Below are positions 40,257 to 46,424 of a stretch of DNA of 46,424 bases, one piece after another. This DNA is from Campylobacteraceae bacterium (lineage in GTDB: Bacteria > Campylobacterota > Campylobacteria > Campylobacterales > Sulfurovaceae). Both the position numbers and the translations under genes were made by a program. Numbering within the stretch: the first letter of the stretch is position 1; every line of letters begins with the position of its first letter. The notes below the pieces were generated by a model, which saw nothing but the letters and a program-made list of their open reading frames with translations, was not told where the DNA came from and made no database searches. Where the stretch lies: NCBI GenBank assembly GCA_027034975.1, contig JALVWQ010000026.1, positions 1-46,424 on the forward strand, read 5' to 3'.

Positions 40257-40740
40257 TATCAAAGCACTGCTCCAGTCACTCCCAAAGAGTCCAGGAATGC
40301 GTATAATGCACTTTTGCAAAGAGCCTCTTTTGATTTCGCAGATACAAGAGTATTGCAAAAGCGAAAGTGACTATTGCGAATACCTTATAGTAACCCTAAC
40401 AGCCCAAGATGCTGCCGAGCTCCAAGAGTTTCAAAACAACTATACTGAGGTGAAGTATCTAAGCCCACAGCGTCCTCGCTTCCATATGCAATCGAAGCAG
40501 TATGACTACCTCTTTCTAAGTACACTCCCACAAGAGCGAATTCCTTTTTTTAAAAAAATCTATCGTGCCCTTAAAAATGGTGCACCACTCTTTATATTTT
40601 TAGAAAAAGAAGTAAGTGAACTCTACTATAAAATAGAGAGTGAATTGATAGAGACAAACTATGTAGCCACAAACAGAACAGAACTTGAAGAGTTTACACT
40701 TCTCTCAGCCAAAAAGATGCACGGCTGGAGCGGAGCTTAA
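40249..40740 (+). CDS. Methyltransferase-fold-like protein, unknown function
   Basis: 163 residues. The second half reads like the end of a Rossmann SAM-methyltransferase (QYDYLFLSTLPQERIPFFKKIYRALKNGAPLFIFLEKE), but no glycine-rich SAM loop is visible in the first half, where MRIMHFCKEPLL stands. It may be a degenerate methyltransferase. The ATG at 40249 overlaps the preceding stop and follows GCGGAG by 7 bases. Its stop codon overlaps the stop of the convergent LysR gene. Confidence 0.6.
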   Translation: MDSIKALLQSLPKSPGMRIMHFCKEPLLISQIQEYCKSESDYCEYLIVTLTAQDAAELQEFQNNYTEVKYLSPQRPRFHMQSKQYDYLFLSTLPQERIPFFKKIYRALKNGAPLFIFLEKEVSELYYKIESELIETNYVATNRTELEEFTLLSAKKMHGWSGA

Positions 40741-41648
40741 CAACTAACACACCCTTTTTGCAGCATCGCTTGAGAGATCATAGATTTAGAGAACTCATAG
40801 AGTTTTAAGAAGAGCTCGCTCTTATACTTATCTTTATGATAGATTGCATAAAAGTCTCGTGCACAACGGAACCCTTTTACATTAAGCTTAAAGAGTGATC
40901 CATCAATTAACTCTTTACTAACTGCTAATTTCGAGAGGCAACTAAGTGGTTTTTTGCTTAAAAGTAGACTTTTAATAGACTCTGTATGCCCAAGCTCTAA
41001 GAAGATATTTAAACGAACACCACTCTCTTTTGCACAATTTAAGAAGGCTTCTCTTGTTGAGCTGCCTCTCTCACGCAATACCCAGCGATAATCGGCAATT
41101 TCAGCTAGAGTAAGCTCTCTATCTTTTAACTCCTCATTTGCACTCACGATAATAAGTTCATCTTTTCCTATCGACTCCTGTATAATATCGCTATCCATAA
41201 CATCTGCTTCAATAAAGCCCATATCGATTTGCCCACTCTTAACCAAAGAGAGAATCTCTTGTGTATTCCCCTCTTTTAGATCTATCTTTACATTTGGATA
41301 GCGGCTCATATAGTCACAGACAATCCCTGGCATAAGATAGTCGATAATGGTAGTACTCGCTCCGACACGAATATTCCCTTTATCTTCGCTATTTTTAAAC
41401 TCACTCTCAATATCACTTAACTTTTTATAGATTGGCTTTACAGCACTATAGAAGCTTCTTCCAATCTCATTAAGAATCAACTTTTTATTAATTCTATCAA
41501 AAAGCTTCTTGCCTAAAATTGTCTCGAGCTCTTTAATTGACATAGAGATAGCCGACTGGCTTAAACCAAGGGTCGATGCTACCTTCGTTAAATTTTGAAA
41601 CTTTACAACATATAAAAATATCTCTATCTGTCTGAGTGATATCTTCAT
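40737..41648 (-). CDS. LysR-family transcriptional regulator with C-terminal CxxC
   Basis: 303 residues. The N-terminal winged helix-turn-helix (about 1-60, VASTLGLSQSAISMSIKELE) is followed by a LysR substrate-binding domain (about 88-295). The last residues are KGCVSC, a CxxC (C300, C303) at the extreme C-terminus that is not part of the usual fold and could bind metal, Fe-S or form a disulfide. It is divergent from the NifS-like/NifU-like pair across 225 bases, the standard layout for a LysR gene and its target. It belongs to the CysB/CbbR-like general family; the ligand is unknown. Confidence 0.88.
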   Translation of the reverse strand: MKISLRQIEIFLYVVKFQNLTKVASTLGLSQSAISMSIKELETILGKKLFDRINKKLILNEIGRSFYSAVKPIYKKLSDIESEFKNSEDKGNIRVGASTTIIDYLMPGIVCDYMSRYPNVKIDLKEGNTQEILSLVKSGQIDMGFIEADVMDSDIIQESIGKDELIIVSANEELKDRELTLAEIADYRWVLRERGSSTREAFLNCAKESGVRLNIFLELGHTESIKSLLLSKKPLSCLSKLAVSKELIDGSLFKLNVKGFRCARDFYAIYHKDKYKSELFLKLYEFSKSMISQAMLQKGCVSC

Positions 41649-41873: not shown

Positions 41874-43040
41874 ATGGCTATTTTATTAAATAGTAATATC
41901 ACCACCCCAACAATGCAAAATGTAATAGATGCAATGGAGCCATGGAGAGACAAAGCAATAGACCTATATAACAAAGCAAGATCAAATCAGAAAGCTCTCC
42001 AAACCTATCATGGTGCAATAGAGAAGATCTACGCCTCAATTCATGCAAAAGATGAAGATACAATTTTACTCAACTCAGGCAACAATGAGGCAATCTCACA
42101 GCTCTATTTTACAATCTATATTCACTATATATTAACTGGGCGTAAAAATGCCATTGTAGCTTTTGATAGATGCTCTATGAGCGAGCAGCGAACTTTGAAG
42201 CTATTAGAGTCGCAAGGGTGTAGAGTGCACCGAGTACCACCAACTATAGATGGTACTATTGACCTTGAGATCTTAAAAGAGTATGTCAATACAAAGACAG
42301 CACTCGTTTCACTGCCACTTGTTGATGAAGAGAGTGGAGTTATTCAGCCACTCGAAGAGGTTTCACAAATCTGTGCACTCCATGGTGCACCTCTTTATGT
42401 TAATGCAAAGGATGCTATGGGGAGAATCCCTATCGATACACAACGCGAAAGGGTTGATTTCTTAAGCTTTGAGGGGGCAAATATTGGAGGACCAAAAGAT
42501 ATTGGTGCACTCTATATTGCAAAAGATGCTCCAGAGCTTCTACCGCTTATTTTTGGGCACCAAAGTGAACAAGCAGGATTGCGGGCAAATCTGCAAGATG
42601 TTGCAAAGGTAATTGGTTTTGCTAAAGCACTCGAGAGTGTAGTGGATGCTCTTGATTTCGAGATCGAAGATACACGAGACCTTCGTGACAAACTCGAAGA
42701 GGAGCTTCTTAAGATTCCACAGAGCTACTCACTAGCACCTTGGGCACTGCGTGTTCCAACAGTTGCTATTATGGCGTTTCAAGGGGTACATGGTGGCATG
42801 CTCGTTGATCTTTTGGCAAAAAGAGATATTATCGCCTACTCATATGCGAGCTACCCTCGTACAAACTTCGAGCGTACACCACTTACAGAGCTTGCAAAGC
42901 TCGATGAATCACTTAAACACTGCACAGTTGGTTTTAGCCTCTGGTCGCACAATAGCGAAGAGGAGATAGAAGAGGCGATCAAAATAATTAACGAAACAGT
43001 CGCAGAGGTACGCGAAATCTCTGCTTGCAAAGGAGAATAG
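41874..43040 (+). CDS. NifS-like protein lacking the catalytic residues (pseudo-cysteine desulfurase)
   Basis: 388 residues, the full length of Helicobacter/Campylobacter-type NifS, with a clear family scaffold: LNSNITT at the start (canonical LDNNATT), RIPID...VDFLSF, GGPKDIGALYI, LRDKLEEELLKIP and FSLWSHNSEEEIEEAI. The chemistry is gone. The PLP Schiff-base Lys of the xHKxxGPKG motif is N203 (EGANIGGPKD). The PLP-contacting Asp is N177 and the neighbouring Gln is D180 (YVNAKDAMGR). The stacking His is S101. The RSGTxN phosphate loop is LRANLQ, and the catalytic loop GSAC is SYASYPRT without Cys. I infer a non-desulfurase role, possibly scaffold or regulator. AAAGGAGAA precedes the ATG. NifU-like follows with no gap. 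Confidence 0.85.
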   Translation: MAILLNSNITTPTMQNVIDAMEPWRDKAIDLYNKARSNQKALQTYHGAIEKIYASIHAKDEDTILLNSGNNEAISQLYFTIYIHYILTGRKNAIVAFDRCSMSEQRTLKLLESQGCRVHRVPPTIDGTIDLEILKEYVNTKTALVSLPLVDEESGVIQPLEEVSQICALHGAPLYVNAKDAMGRIPIDTQRERVDFLSFEGANIGGPKDIGALYIAKDAPELLPLIFGHQSEQAGLRANLQDVAKVIGFAKALESVVDALDFEIEDTRDLRDKLEEELLKIPQSYSLAPWALRVPTVAIMAFQGVHGGMLVDLLAKRDIIAYSYASYPRTNFERTPLTELAKLDESLKHCTVGFSLWSHNSEEEIEEAIKIINETVAEVREISACKGE

Positions 43041-43976
43041 ATGAGTAAACAAGCAATACTCCCACAGGTAAGAGAGAACTTTAAAATCGACTCCCTAATT
43101 AACGGAAAACAAAATATCGGTAGACTGAGTAAAGAGGAGGCTCAAGCAATGCAAGCTACTCTCTTTACCTACAACTATGGCTCTTGCGAGAGTGGCTTAG
43201 CCCTTACAATCTATGCTGCCTTTAATAAAGAGCAAAGAGTGGTCGATTGCAAAATCGAGGTTTTTGGAGAGAGCGAATTGATTGCAGTAGCCTCAATTGC
43301 AGCTCTCATTGCCAAAAACAAAACACCTCAAGAAATACTGCAGCTTAAAGAGAAGGGGATAGAGTACTTTTTGCGCGAAAACCCAAATAAGCCAGCACTT
43401 CCTAAACAGCTGCGATTTGTCACAAATATTATGATAGATGCCCTCCATCTTATGGCAAAAAGCTACCTTGGCGAAACGATCGTAGAGGGTAGAGAAATCG
43501 ACCCACTTACTGGCACAACAGAGCGGTTTATTAAAGAGAGTATCAAACGGTTCGATATCAAAACACTCGAAGAGTTAAGCGACTATACGCGTGCAGGCTA
43601 CCTTGGCTCGACACATCTTCAGTCTGGCTTTAGTAATATTTTAGAAGATATCCTTAAAGAGAGTCGTAAAGAGATAGAAGAGTCACAAAAAGAGAGTATA
43701 ACACTCCCAGATAAACCATTTAAAGAGCTCACCGTAGAAGAGAAAAGAGCAGCCATAGAGGCGATAATCGAAGAGAATATCCGCCAGATGCTCGTTATGG
43801 ACGGAGGTGATATGGAGATACTAGACATCAAAGAGAATGGCGAAGATACAGATATCTATATCCGCTACCTAGGAGCCTGCAACGGCTGTGCGAGTGCAAG
43901 TACTGGAACACTCTTTGCTATCGAAGGCATTTTAAAACAGAAGCTCGATAAAAATATCCGTGTAATTCCTCTCTAA
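43041..43976 (+). CDS. NifU-like protein with only the C-terminal CxxC retained
   Basis: 311 residues with the three-part layout of Helicobacter NifU. In the N-terminal IscU-like domain (about 20-145) one Cys (C49) may match the first scaffold cysteine. The second (FGCG) is now FGES (E77), and the third (HCS) is lost near residue 126. The central Bfd-like domain (about 155-200, LEELSDYTRAGYLGSTH) lacks all four [2Fe-2S] cysteines. The C-terminal Nfu domain (about 235-311) is highly conserved, with MDGGDMEILDIK and YLGACNGCASASTGTLF (C280, C283). It probably carries or transfers an Fe-S cluster through this last domain. It starts directly after the NifS-like stop; a terminator follows. Confidence 0.87.
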   Translation: MSKQAILPQVRENFKIDSLINGKQNIGRLSKEEAQAMQATLFTYNYGSCESGLALTIYAAFNKEQRVVDCKIEVFGESELIAVASIAALIAKNKTPQEILQLKEKGIEYFLRENPNKPALPKQLRFVTNIMIDALHLMAKSYLGETIVEGREIDPLTGTTERFIKESIKRFDIKTLEELSDYTRAGYLGSTHLQSGFSNILEDILKESRKEIEESQKESITLPDKPFKELTVEEKRAAIEAIIEENIRQMLVMDGGDMEILDIKENGEDTDIYIRYLGACNGCASASTGTLFAIEGILKQKLDKNIRVIPL

Positions 43977-44310: not shown

Positions 44311-44688
44311 CTATTGTTTAAATTTATTTACCGTCAAATCAATAAAATTCTTTGCATTTAGGTATCCAACAAACTTTGCTTGCATGCTTTTATCGCAAGG
44401 ATCAACAATATAGATAATAGACGTAGACTTTAGCCTCTTTAAGAACTTTGGTTCACCCTCTACATCTACATTTACAACCGCTGGAATAAACTGCTTCTTT
44501 ATAATTGTATCGATACTCTTTACAGAAAGTATATTCTCTTCTAATTTTCGGCACCAAGGACAAGATGGGGCATCCGCAACAACCATTATATAGCGTTTCT
44601 CTCTCTTTGCCTTCTCAAGATCTTTGTTAAAATCCTCTTCGTAGCCCATCTTTTTAGCAAATGAGTGATGCTTGATCTCTTTTAGCAA
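44311..44688 (-). CDS. Thioredoxin-fold protein with CPWC motif
   Basis: About 125 residues. Thioredoxin-like domain with the active site SCPWCRKLEENIL near residue 43 and the cis-Pro region replaced by STSIIYIVDP. No signal peptide is visible in this reading. The start is uncertain: TTG 44688 gives LKEIKHHSFAKKMGYEEDF, while ATG 44649 (13 codons later) gives a 112-residue protein; neither has a good ribosome site. The CxxC and its place next to other thioredoxin-like genes suggest thiol-disulfide exchange. Confidence 0.7.
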   Translation of the reverse strand: MLKEIKHHSFAKKMGYEEDFNKDLEKAKREKRYIMVVADAPSCPWCRKLEENILSVKSIDTIIKKQFIPAVVNVDVEGEPKFLKRLKSTSIIYIVDPCDKSMQAKFVGYLNAKNFIDLTVNKFKQ

Positions 44689-44765
44689 TAAAAAATTTGT
44701 AAAAAGAATAATATAATATAAGAAATTTTAATATAATATGGAGTCTATACACTCCACAAAAAAGA

Positions 44766-45680
44766 TTACTGCCAATCGAGCTGATTGTAATAGTCTGTAG
44801 CATTGTGACGATTAAGCTCCTTCACATGCTTTAAATCTTTAAACTTCTCTAAATGCAAATGCTTTGGCAAATCAATTAAATCTACATCATTATCGTAGGC
44901 TTTTTTTACTTGGCTCTGCAGTGCTTTGAGATACTCCTCAGTCGTTTTATATGCATCCGCACCCATAATCGATCCATGTCCGCCTAAAACAATTTTTGGC
45001 TTAAGGGCTTTTATCTTCTCTATCGCCTCTAACCACCCTTTCATATTGCTATTTTTTGTGTAATTGAGTGCTCTGTTATTAAATACAATATTGCCAGCAA
45101 ACAAAAAGCCGTTATCGGGCACCCATACAACAATATCAGACTTCTCTTCACTGACATAACTCAATTTTAAAAGTTTTACAACCCTTTTTGTGCCATTAAT
45201 ATCATACTCTTTCTCAAAAAGGGTATTTGGCGTTACTACCTTAGTGCCCTTAAACTCCTCTTTTGTTAAGATATGTTTCATTCTCTCAAACTTTTGTGGA
45301 TTCTTCTTGATATCTTCAATAATATTTTTATGTGCAATTACAGGAATATTTTTGCTTGCATAGTAACTTGCACCCAAAAGCCTATCGTCATGATAGTTTG
45401 TAACAACAACTGCTTTTACCTTCTTACCGCTTAGTTTCTCTGCGGCAGCTGCAAACTCTTTTGCAAAGTTAAAACTTGGCCCTGGATCAACCACAACCAA
45501 ACCATCACCCACATCAATAAAGCAACTATTATTTACAAACCCTTTATTCTCTTTTGTTGGTGGATTAAAATCTCCTATAACGCACTCTATACCGTCTGCA
45601 ACTTTTTTAAAGTCAAAGTTATAGATATTTGCATTCAAAAACGAAAATACAATAGCCGCTATCAAAATTATCTTTTTCAT
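44766..45680 (-). CDS. MBL-fold protein with degenerate metal site (SoxH-like)
   Basis: 304 residues with a signal peptide (MKKIILIAAIVFSFLNA). The metallo-beta-lactamase fold is evident (DVGDGLVVVDPGPS, VVVTNYHDDRLLGASYY, LFAGNIVF, VLGGHGSIMG). The zinc motif THxHxDH reads T-N95-Y-H97-D-D99-R100, so two of the four ligands there are replaced. The usual later His and bridging Asp are also not evident (N197), while H235 remains. It may bind one metal or none. Related periplasmic MBL proteins occur with Sox and quinoprotein clusters. The ATG directly follows the stop of the thioredoxin gene, in an operon with CcdA. Confidence 0.75.
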   Translation of the reverse strand: MKKIILIAAIVFSFLNANIYNFDFKKVADGIECVIGDFNPPTKENKGFVNNSCFIDVGDGLVVVDPGPSFNFAKEFAAAAEKLSGKKVKAVVVTNYHDDRLLGASYYASKNIPVIAHKNIIEDIKKNPQKFERMKHILTKEEFKGTKVVTPNTLFEKEYDINGTKRVVKLLKLSYVSEEKSDIVVWVPDNGFLFAGNIVFNNRALNYTKNSNMKGWLEAIEKIKALKPKIVLGGHGSIMGADAYKTTEEYLKALQSQVKKAYDNDVDLIDLPKHLHLEKFKDLKHVKELNRHNATDYYNQLDWQ

Positions 45681-46046
45681 CTACTCTCCTATCTTATATT
45701 TTTGTAACATCTCTAAAAGCTCTTTTTTACTCAATTTACCCACATGTCTTGCAACTATTGTGTTGTTACTATCTATAAAAACTTGTGTTGGAATCAGCGA
45801 TATTTTAAACTTTTTTGCTACATCCATCTCTTGCATAATATTTACAAAATAAAGCGGCCGTTTTGGATCTTCACTCTTTAATTGGTAAAGCAACTTATCC
45901 ATCTCTTGACACGCCATACAGCTTGTTGCACCAAACTCTATCAACTTTGCACCTTTTGGTATATCGGCAAATTTAGTTGCCTCAAGCATCCCATCTTCTG
46001 CATATAAACCTAAAATCAAAAAAGCCAATAGTAACATTTTTCTCAT
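45681..46046 (-). CDS. Periplasmic thioredoxin-like protein with CMAC motif
   Basis: 121 residues with a signal peptide (MRKMLLLAFLILGLYA). The thioredoxin fold has the active site GATSCMACQEMD near residue 43 and a cis-Pro in SLIPTQVF. The CMAC dipeptide differs from classical CGPC. It probably receives electrons from the membrane protein CcdA encoded just upstream. The start at 46046 follows AAGGA; upstream is a purine-rich stretch with an 11-bp direct repeat (AAGGGAGAAGG, complement of 46053-46063 and 46074-46084). Confidence 0.8.
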   Translation of the reverse strand: MRKMLLLAFLILGLYAEDGMLEATKFADIPKGAKLIEFGATSCMACQEMDKLLYQLKSEDPKRPLYFVNIMQEMDVAKKFKISLIPTQVFIDSNNTIVARHVGKLSKKELLEMLQKYKIGE

Positions 46047-46086
46047 AATTTTCCTTCTCCCTTCATCCTTCAACCTTCTCCCTTAT

Positions 46087-46424
46087 TTAAATAATTTGCC
46101 ACGCTTTATAGAGGTAATAAACTCCAATTCCAAAGAGCATTGTAATAAATATTGCATTTAAAGCACGGCTAATTTTACTCAATAAATCACTACTTGCAAT
46201 ACTTTGTGCAAAACCTACCGAAATGCCAGAGATTAAAAGCAAACTTGCATGCCCTAATGCAAAGGCTAAAACAAGCATATAAGCCTGCAACCAATTACTA
46301 CTCTGCTGTGCAACAGTAATTATTGCAACAAGTGGAGCCGAAGCACAAGGTGTGCTTACAAGCCCAAAAATTATACCAATAATCACCGCACCAAAAAGTT
46401 TAAAACGCAAAAGCTTTTTAGCAA
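46087..46424 (-). CDS. CcdA/DsbD-type membrane thiol transporter, N-terminus cut by window edge
   Basis: The C-terminal 112 residues are visible; the frame stays open to the right edge, so the N-terminal half is missing. It has three to four membrane helices, with the CcdA landmark GLVSTPCASAPLVAII holding one of the two redox cysteines. CcdA passes electrons from cytoplasmic thioredoxin across the membrane to periplasmic thioredoxin-like proteins, consistent with the thioredoxin gene 40 bases downstream. Confidence 0.82.
   Translation of the reverse strand, partial: AKKLLRFKLFGAVIIGIIFGLVSTPCASAPLVAIITVAQQSSNWLQAYMLVLAFALGHASLLLISGISVGFAQSIASSDLLSKISRALNAIFITMLFGIGVYYLYKAWQII

Follow-up and report, generated by a model that had tools for sequence, protein, structure and literature searches.

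A NifS/NifU-like gene pair with lost catalytic and scaffold residues is maintained beside SUF in Nitratifractor/Sulfurovum-like Campylobacterota

Cysteine desulfurases are generally regarded as almost ubiquitous among bacteria. The described systems closest to the locus analyzed here are the NifS/NifU pairs of Helicobacter and Hydrogenimonas (TIGR03403, TIGR02000; PDB 5wt2, 5zsp); the two H. pylori proteins bind each other in a complex. Natural loss of the pyridoxal phosphate (PLP) lysine is known from IscS of Archaeoglobus fulgidus (PDB 4eb5, 4hvk, 4r5f), which was reported to be inactive yet bound to IscU (PMC7585200) and which keeps its loop cysteine as a cluster ligand, and from IscS1 of Methanosarcina acetivorans. 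The A. fulgidus protein is a precedent for a desulfurase homologue that has lost its lysine and is nevertheless retained as a partner of IscU. In NfuA, an Nfu domain is fused to a degenerate domain in which a cysteine required to ligate a cluster is missing and which directs NfuA to apo-proteins; a carrier role has been proposed. Finally, the SMS/SUF systems of the methanogens M. jannaschii and M. maripaludis combine SufBC-type assembly with the lack of a recognisable cysteine desulfurase, and sulfide as the sulfur source in desulfurase-free assembly is established for SMS (PMC12192291, PMC8351635).

The window, by which we mean the whole analyzed stretch of 46,424 nucleotides, contains a NifS-like gene followed by a NifU-like gene, with a regulator gene on the opposite strand.

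40737..41648, minus strand: divergent LysR-type regulator; the nearest NCBIfam model is YeiE, with a score below cut-off
41874..43040, plus strand: pseudo-NifS, a full-length NifS/IscS-fold protein of 388 aa
43041..43976, plus strand: NifU-like protein of 311 aa, with IscU (about 1-145), ferredoxin (146-205), and Nfu (236-311) domains
43746..43973, plus strand: Nfu domain of the NifU-like protein (residues 236-311); its C280-x-x-C283 is the sole metal-site motif that remains

Both reading frames are open and intact, the NifS-like stop abuts the NifU-like start with zero gap, and purine-rich ribosome-site sequences precede both genes (aaaggagaat.. and aaaggagaatag followed by atg), in agreement with the first-pass annotation of this DNA. 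The pair resembles the Helicobacter/Hydrogenimonas system in gene order, domain order, fold, and, in relatives, locus position. It differs in that all nine catalytic/PLP positions checked are changed, the IscU and ferredoxin cysteines are lost, SUF is present, and no desulfurase is left.

The NifS-like protein is matched over its whole length by the TIGR03403 (nifS_epsilon) model, but the score, 212 bits, is far below the cut-off of 587.7. The nine catalytic/PLP positions read THNDQSHKC in 37 of 38 aligned canonical NifS proteins and SHNDQSHKC in the other one; the corresponding string in the window protein is NSENDEANY. The PLP lysine K206 is replaced by N203, the PLP aspartate D180 by N177, and the stacking histidine H104 by S101, and the catalytic loop reads SYAS, with no cysteine, exactly as the first-pass annotation had it. 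Every catalytic residue checked has been lost, among them the lysine that binds PLP and the cysteine that forms the persulfide. Chance misalignment was ruled out by separate alignments and by alignments with PDB entries, in which neither a lysine nor a cysteine is in place, and the conserved positions of the degenerate NifS-like family contain no substitute Schiff-base lysine and no invariant cysteine. The folds of both proteins are predicted to be intact; the AlphaFold2 model of the NifS-like protein has a pLDDT of 88.9 and a TM-score of 0.89 to the H. pylori and Hydrogenimonas NifS.

With the NifU_proper model (TIGR02000; cut-off 273), the score of the NifU-like protein is 80 bits. The loss of two or three IscU cysteines had been claimed from the sequence; all three aligned columns are in fact changed, C49 and C70 being off-register, and the four central ferredoxin-domain cysteines are gone, as claimed. 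The C-terminal Nfu domain is near-perfect, as was also noted at first pass, with an intact CNGC and 66 bits with PF01106 (cut-off 27). It is the best-conserved part of the protein, with a median dN of 0.085 versus 0.24 for the IscU-like and 0.38 for the ferredoxin-like domain. In a structure comparison, the predicted IscU-like domain was matched by ISCU2 as it occurs in complexes with Nfs1. The NifU-like proteins of genomes G029 and G020 retain the four ferredoxin-domain cysteines. An intermediate stage is seen at loci L054 and L056 of genus g10, where these four cysteines are present and those of the IscU domain are absent.

One explanation for such a pair is a function like that of A. fulgidus IscS, where the NifS-like protein would have no desulfurase activity and would donate a cysteine ligand for a cluster bound by its IscU-like partner. 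The same lysine position is replaced in both proteins (Asp in A. fulgidus, Asn here), their homology is clear (E 2.7e-34), and an IscS-IscU complex has been described for A. fulgidus. However, the window protein has lost the loop cysteine together with the lysine, as well as the His and Asp, and its partner has lost the scaffold cysteines, so that the cluster ligands on both sides are missing. Here, unlike in the A. fulgidus system, the partner also carries an Nfu domain. This explanation is already contradicted by the residues, and we consider it highly improbable.

The degenerate form is present in every member of the window's genus (g1) in which the site is covered. It also occurs in members of g5, g9, and g10, in the sole g6 genome (G026), and, as a truncated copy, in G021 of g11. 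Because the residue losses recur in all covered members of the genus and in further genera, they are not due to chance. The canonical nine-position string is near-invariant in canonical NifS and is lost in all degenerate proteins. When 68 sequences were placed in a tree, a single branch separated the 30 degenerate ones from the rest (95/99; 97% of bootstrap trees), a grouping to be taken with caution given the long branches of the degenerate sequences. A scan of 84,980 species yielded 30 loci, 3 of them canonical, all titled Campylobacterota (Nitratifractor, Sulfurovum, and Campylobacteraceae metagenome-assembled genomes). The losses are common to one clade of Nitratifractor/Sulfurovum-like Campylobacterota comprising 30 sequences from five or six genera. 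In g9, the NifS-like proteins at loci L059, L060, and L061 are 367-371 aa long, and the catalytic loop itself is deleted.

The degenerate pair is flanked by pyrG and recJ in g9, g10, and g6 and by folE in g5, and the canonical nifSU genes occupy the matching positions beside pyrG, recJ, and folE in g2 and g3, the names of these neighbours being our reading of cluster sequences. Since the degenerate pair sits where relatives carry canonical nifSU, the housekeeping NIF locus itself has changed. In most lineages, synteny identifies the pair as the original housekeeping locus and not an added paralogue. Duplication occurred too, since both the degenerate and the canonical forms are found in G019 (g9) and G021 (g11). 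Canonical nifSU at locus L049 also coexists with a degenerate copy in G008, a draft genome with 4% contamination; the genes adjoining nifSU at this locus are flavodiiron-like and TPR-Nfu-like, and the same arrangement is seen in G014 and G035.

A change of this extent might reflect slow decay after replacement of NIF by SUF, and most canonical-invariant positions of NifS (78 of 102) are indeed relaxed in the degenerate family. However, simple counting estimates of dN/dS in close pairs are 0.079 and 0.089 for the NifS-like and 0.048 and 0.089 for the NifU-like protein, and two further degenerate NifS pairs yielded 0.043 and 0.060. These values resemble that of sufD, 0.086 in one of the latter species pairs, and those of two canonical NifS pairs, 0.027 and 0.075. 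Wherever a degenerate locus of the first set covers both genes, the two lie side by side. Moreover, the NifS-like proteins have acquired seven invariant positions that differ from the canonical consensus (T88, V150, D151, S154, E265, D266, and W290), and the NifU-like proteins have gained invariant K105, Y109, F110, L111, and others. Because of the adjacency, the dN/dS of 0.04-0.09, and these new invariant residues, the pair is not decaying; with its frames intact as well, decay is largely refuted and scarcely credible. The suggestion made from the sequence alone that this is not simple decay is therefore upheld: homologues are found clade-wide, with dN/dS far from 1, and the module is kept under purifying selection. 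Likewise borne out is the central claim of a pair stripped of desulfurase chemistry and kept as a module, with the addition that the scaffold chemistry has been lost too.

The first-pass annotation expected canonical nifS and nifU elsewhere in the genome. In the genome of the window (96.9% complete), no canonical nifS or nifU and no canonical-type NifS, IscS, or SufS was found. The single contig of 2,101,285 bp in G029, taken as Nitratifractor salsuginis and apparently complete, encodes no other NifS/SufS/IscS-type protein, a canonical desulfurase is absent from five other g1 genomes that are 95% complete or more, and no SufS was found in g1, g5, or g10. Most genomes with the degenerate form lack canonical NifS, IscS, and SufS. 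The proposal that the pair binds or regulates the products of canonical NifS/NifU is accordingly unsupported, as those genes are absent from the window's own genome and most relatives, which have SUF instead. Other class-V hits in the window's genome were rejected as desulfurases, being read from their sequences as alanine-glyoxylate-type, DegT/DnrJ-type, MetY, aspartate-type, and class-III aminotransferases. In G029, the remaining two hits were read as a DegT-type and a MetY protein.

Cysteine sulfur could still be supplied by a hidden desulfurase, either a canonical gene missing from the assemblies or the NifS-like protein itself working in an alternative catalytic mode. Most of the genomes are drafts, and the retained MnmA needs sulfur. 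We regard such a supply as very improbable: the absence extends to the single-contig genome and the five near-complete g1 genomes, and neither the type-specific nor the shared invariant positions of the degenerate family include a Lys or Cys. MnmA is here of the CxxC..C type, and a sulfide/[4Fe-4S] route for MnmA has been both proposed and contested.

These desulfurase-less genomes with the degenerate form carry sufB-C-D-E-T without sufS, and the SufE cysteine is intact; in the window's genome, this operon lies on contig C51 (L085:4387-9040). A chorismate-mutase-like gene adjoins it and is also found upstream in several relatives. In a hand tally of family genomes at least 90% complete, which are related and so not independent of phylogeny, SufB/D was matched in 17 of the 18 with only degenerate NifS versus 43 of the 68 with canonical NifS. 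Since G021 has a degenerate copy and a canonical-type NifS with no SUF match, SUF is not strictly required. In two genomes from other families, G053 (L098) and G057 (L103), sufBCD was found without NifS or SufS, with sufT seen in G053 and no SufE in the stretches read; they may represent a second desulfurase-less SUF lineage.

Our preferred reading, to which we give slightly less than an even chance, is that the former NIF pair is a non-catalytic carrier or docking module beside SUF, with the Nfu domain as its working end and the pseudo-NifS as its docking partner. On this reading, cluster assembly passed to SUF: with that operon present and able to build clusters, NifS would have lost the chemistry that depends on PLP and the persulfide, and NifU the scaffold cysteines of its IscU domain. 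The pair would be retained as a protein-protein module. The NifU-like protein may carry clusters on the Nfu domain, probably [4Fe-4S] clusters from SufBCD. Its cysteine-poor IscU and ferredoxin domains could serve for docking, by analogy with the degenerate A-type domain of NfuA, and a pseudo-NifS dimer might hold or position them. NfuA is the nearest functional parallel of the NifU-like protein, an analogy and not a family membership, as the degenerate part is IscU-like and ferredoxin-like here and is accompanied by a pseudo-NifS. It counts against a carrier that a standalone small Nfu protein exists in the genomes with the degenerate form, which leaves no evident need for a second one, and that retention of a large pseudo-NifS for an Nfu carrier is left unexplained. 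Because of the standalone Nfu, the possibility that the NifU-like protein is the sole Nfu of the genome was rejected.

As the searches turned up no cysteine desulfurase, SUF probably receives its sulfur from sulfide or sulfane sulfur, either directly or via SufE. Elemental sulfur has been reported to serve N. salsuginis as a sulfur source. The situation resembles that in methanogen SMS, but here the system is bacterial, with SufD, SufE, SufT, and a retained pseudo-NifS/NifU pair. Alternatively, it is the pseudo-NifS that docks to or gates this sulfur route, binding SufE or another acceptor and positioning it for sulfide, polysulfide, or rhodanese-bound sulfur, the NifU-like protein being secondary. 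SufE is kept with its cysteine though SufS is absent. In relatives with SUF and no SufS, no desulfurase other than canonical NifS was found, so that NifS probably served SufE there, and the desulfurase-less genomes searched have 7 to 11 rhodanese matches each. Against this stand the loss of the canonical sulfur-transfer loop, up to its deletion in g9, and the persistent association of the pseudo-NifS gene with nifU rather than suf; we consider this alternative rather unlikely. A rhodanese-domain gene is located near the degenerate nifU in G029 (C1:6143-6502).

Combining the carrier or docking role with the sulfur route, we hold it an even matter whether, in a cultivable user of elemental sulfur, a bacterial SUF system with SufE draws on sulfide or sulfane sulfur and works without a cysteine desulfurase, the ancestral NifS/NifU being kept as a non-catalytic module. 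If so, a bacterial clade has swapped a desulfurase for a conserved pseudoenzyme, making the sulfur source of SUF directly testable, and a whole two-protein assembly machine has turned from catalysis to protein contact. The hosts of the degenerate pair are deep-sea and sediment bacteria around Nitratifractor, among whose genomes and those of their relatives the stages are preserved: NIF alone, NIF with SUF, pseudo-NIF with ferredoxin cysteines and SUF, and pseudo-NIF without these cysteines and with SUF. The initial statement that no such pair is described holds in part: lysine-less IscS proteins are known from A. fulgidus and M. acetivorans, but no description of the double degeneration or of the missing desulfurase was found in the literature searched (Nitratifractor and Fe-S topics, with few subscription journals covered).

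The neighbourhood of the pair suggests yet another role, that of a sensor or regulatory pair which might, for example, act with the LysR-type regulator to report the state of clusters or of sulfur. The divergent LysR gene lies beside the pair in all g1 loci that reach far enough upstream, and its product may regulate the pair. However, this neighbour is specific to g1, the other genera with the degenerate form having pyrG/recJ or other genes instead, and a sensory role is improbable. On the other side of the pair, the reverse strand of the window (44311-46410) encodes a thioredoxin-like protein, a SoxH-related metallo-hydrolase, a second thioredoxin, and a CcdA-like membrane protein.
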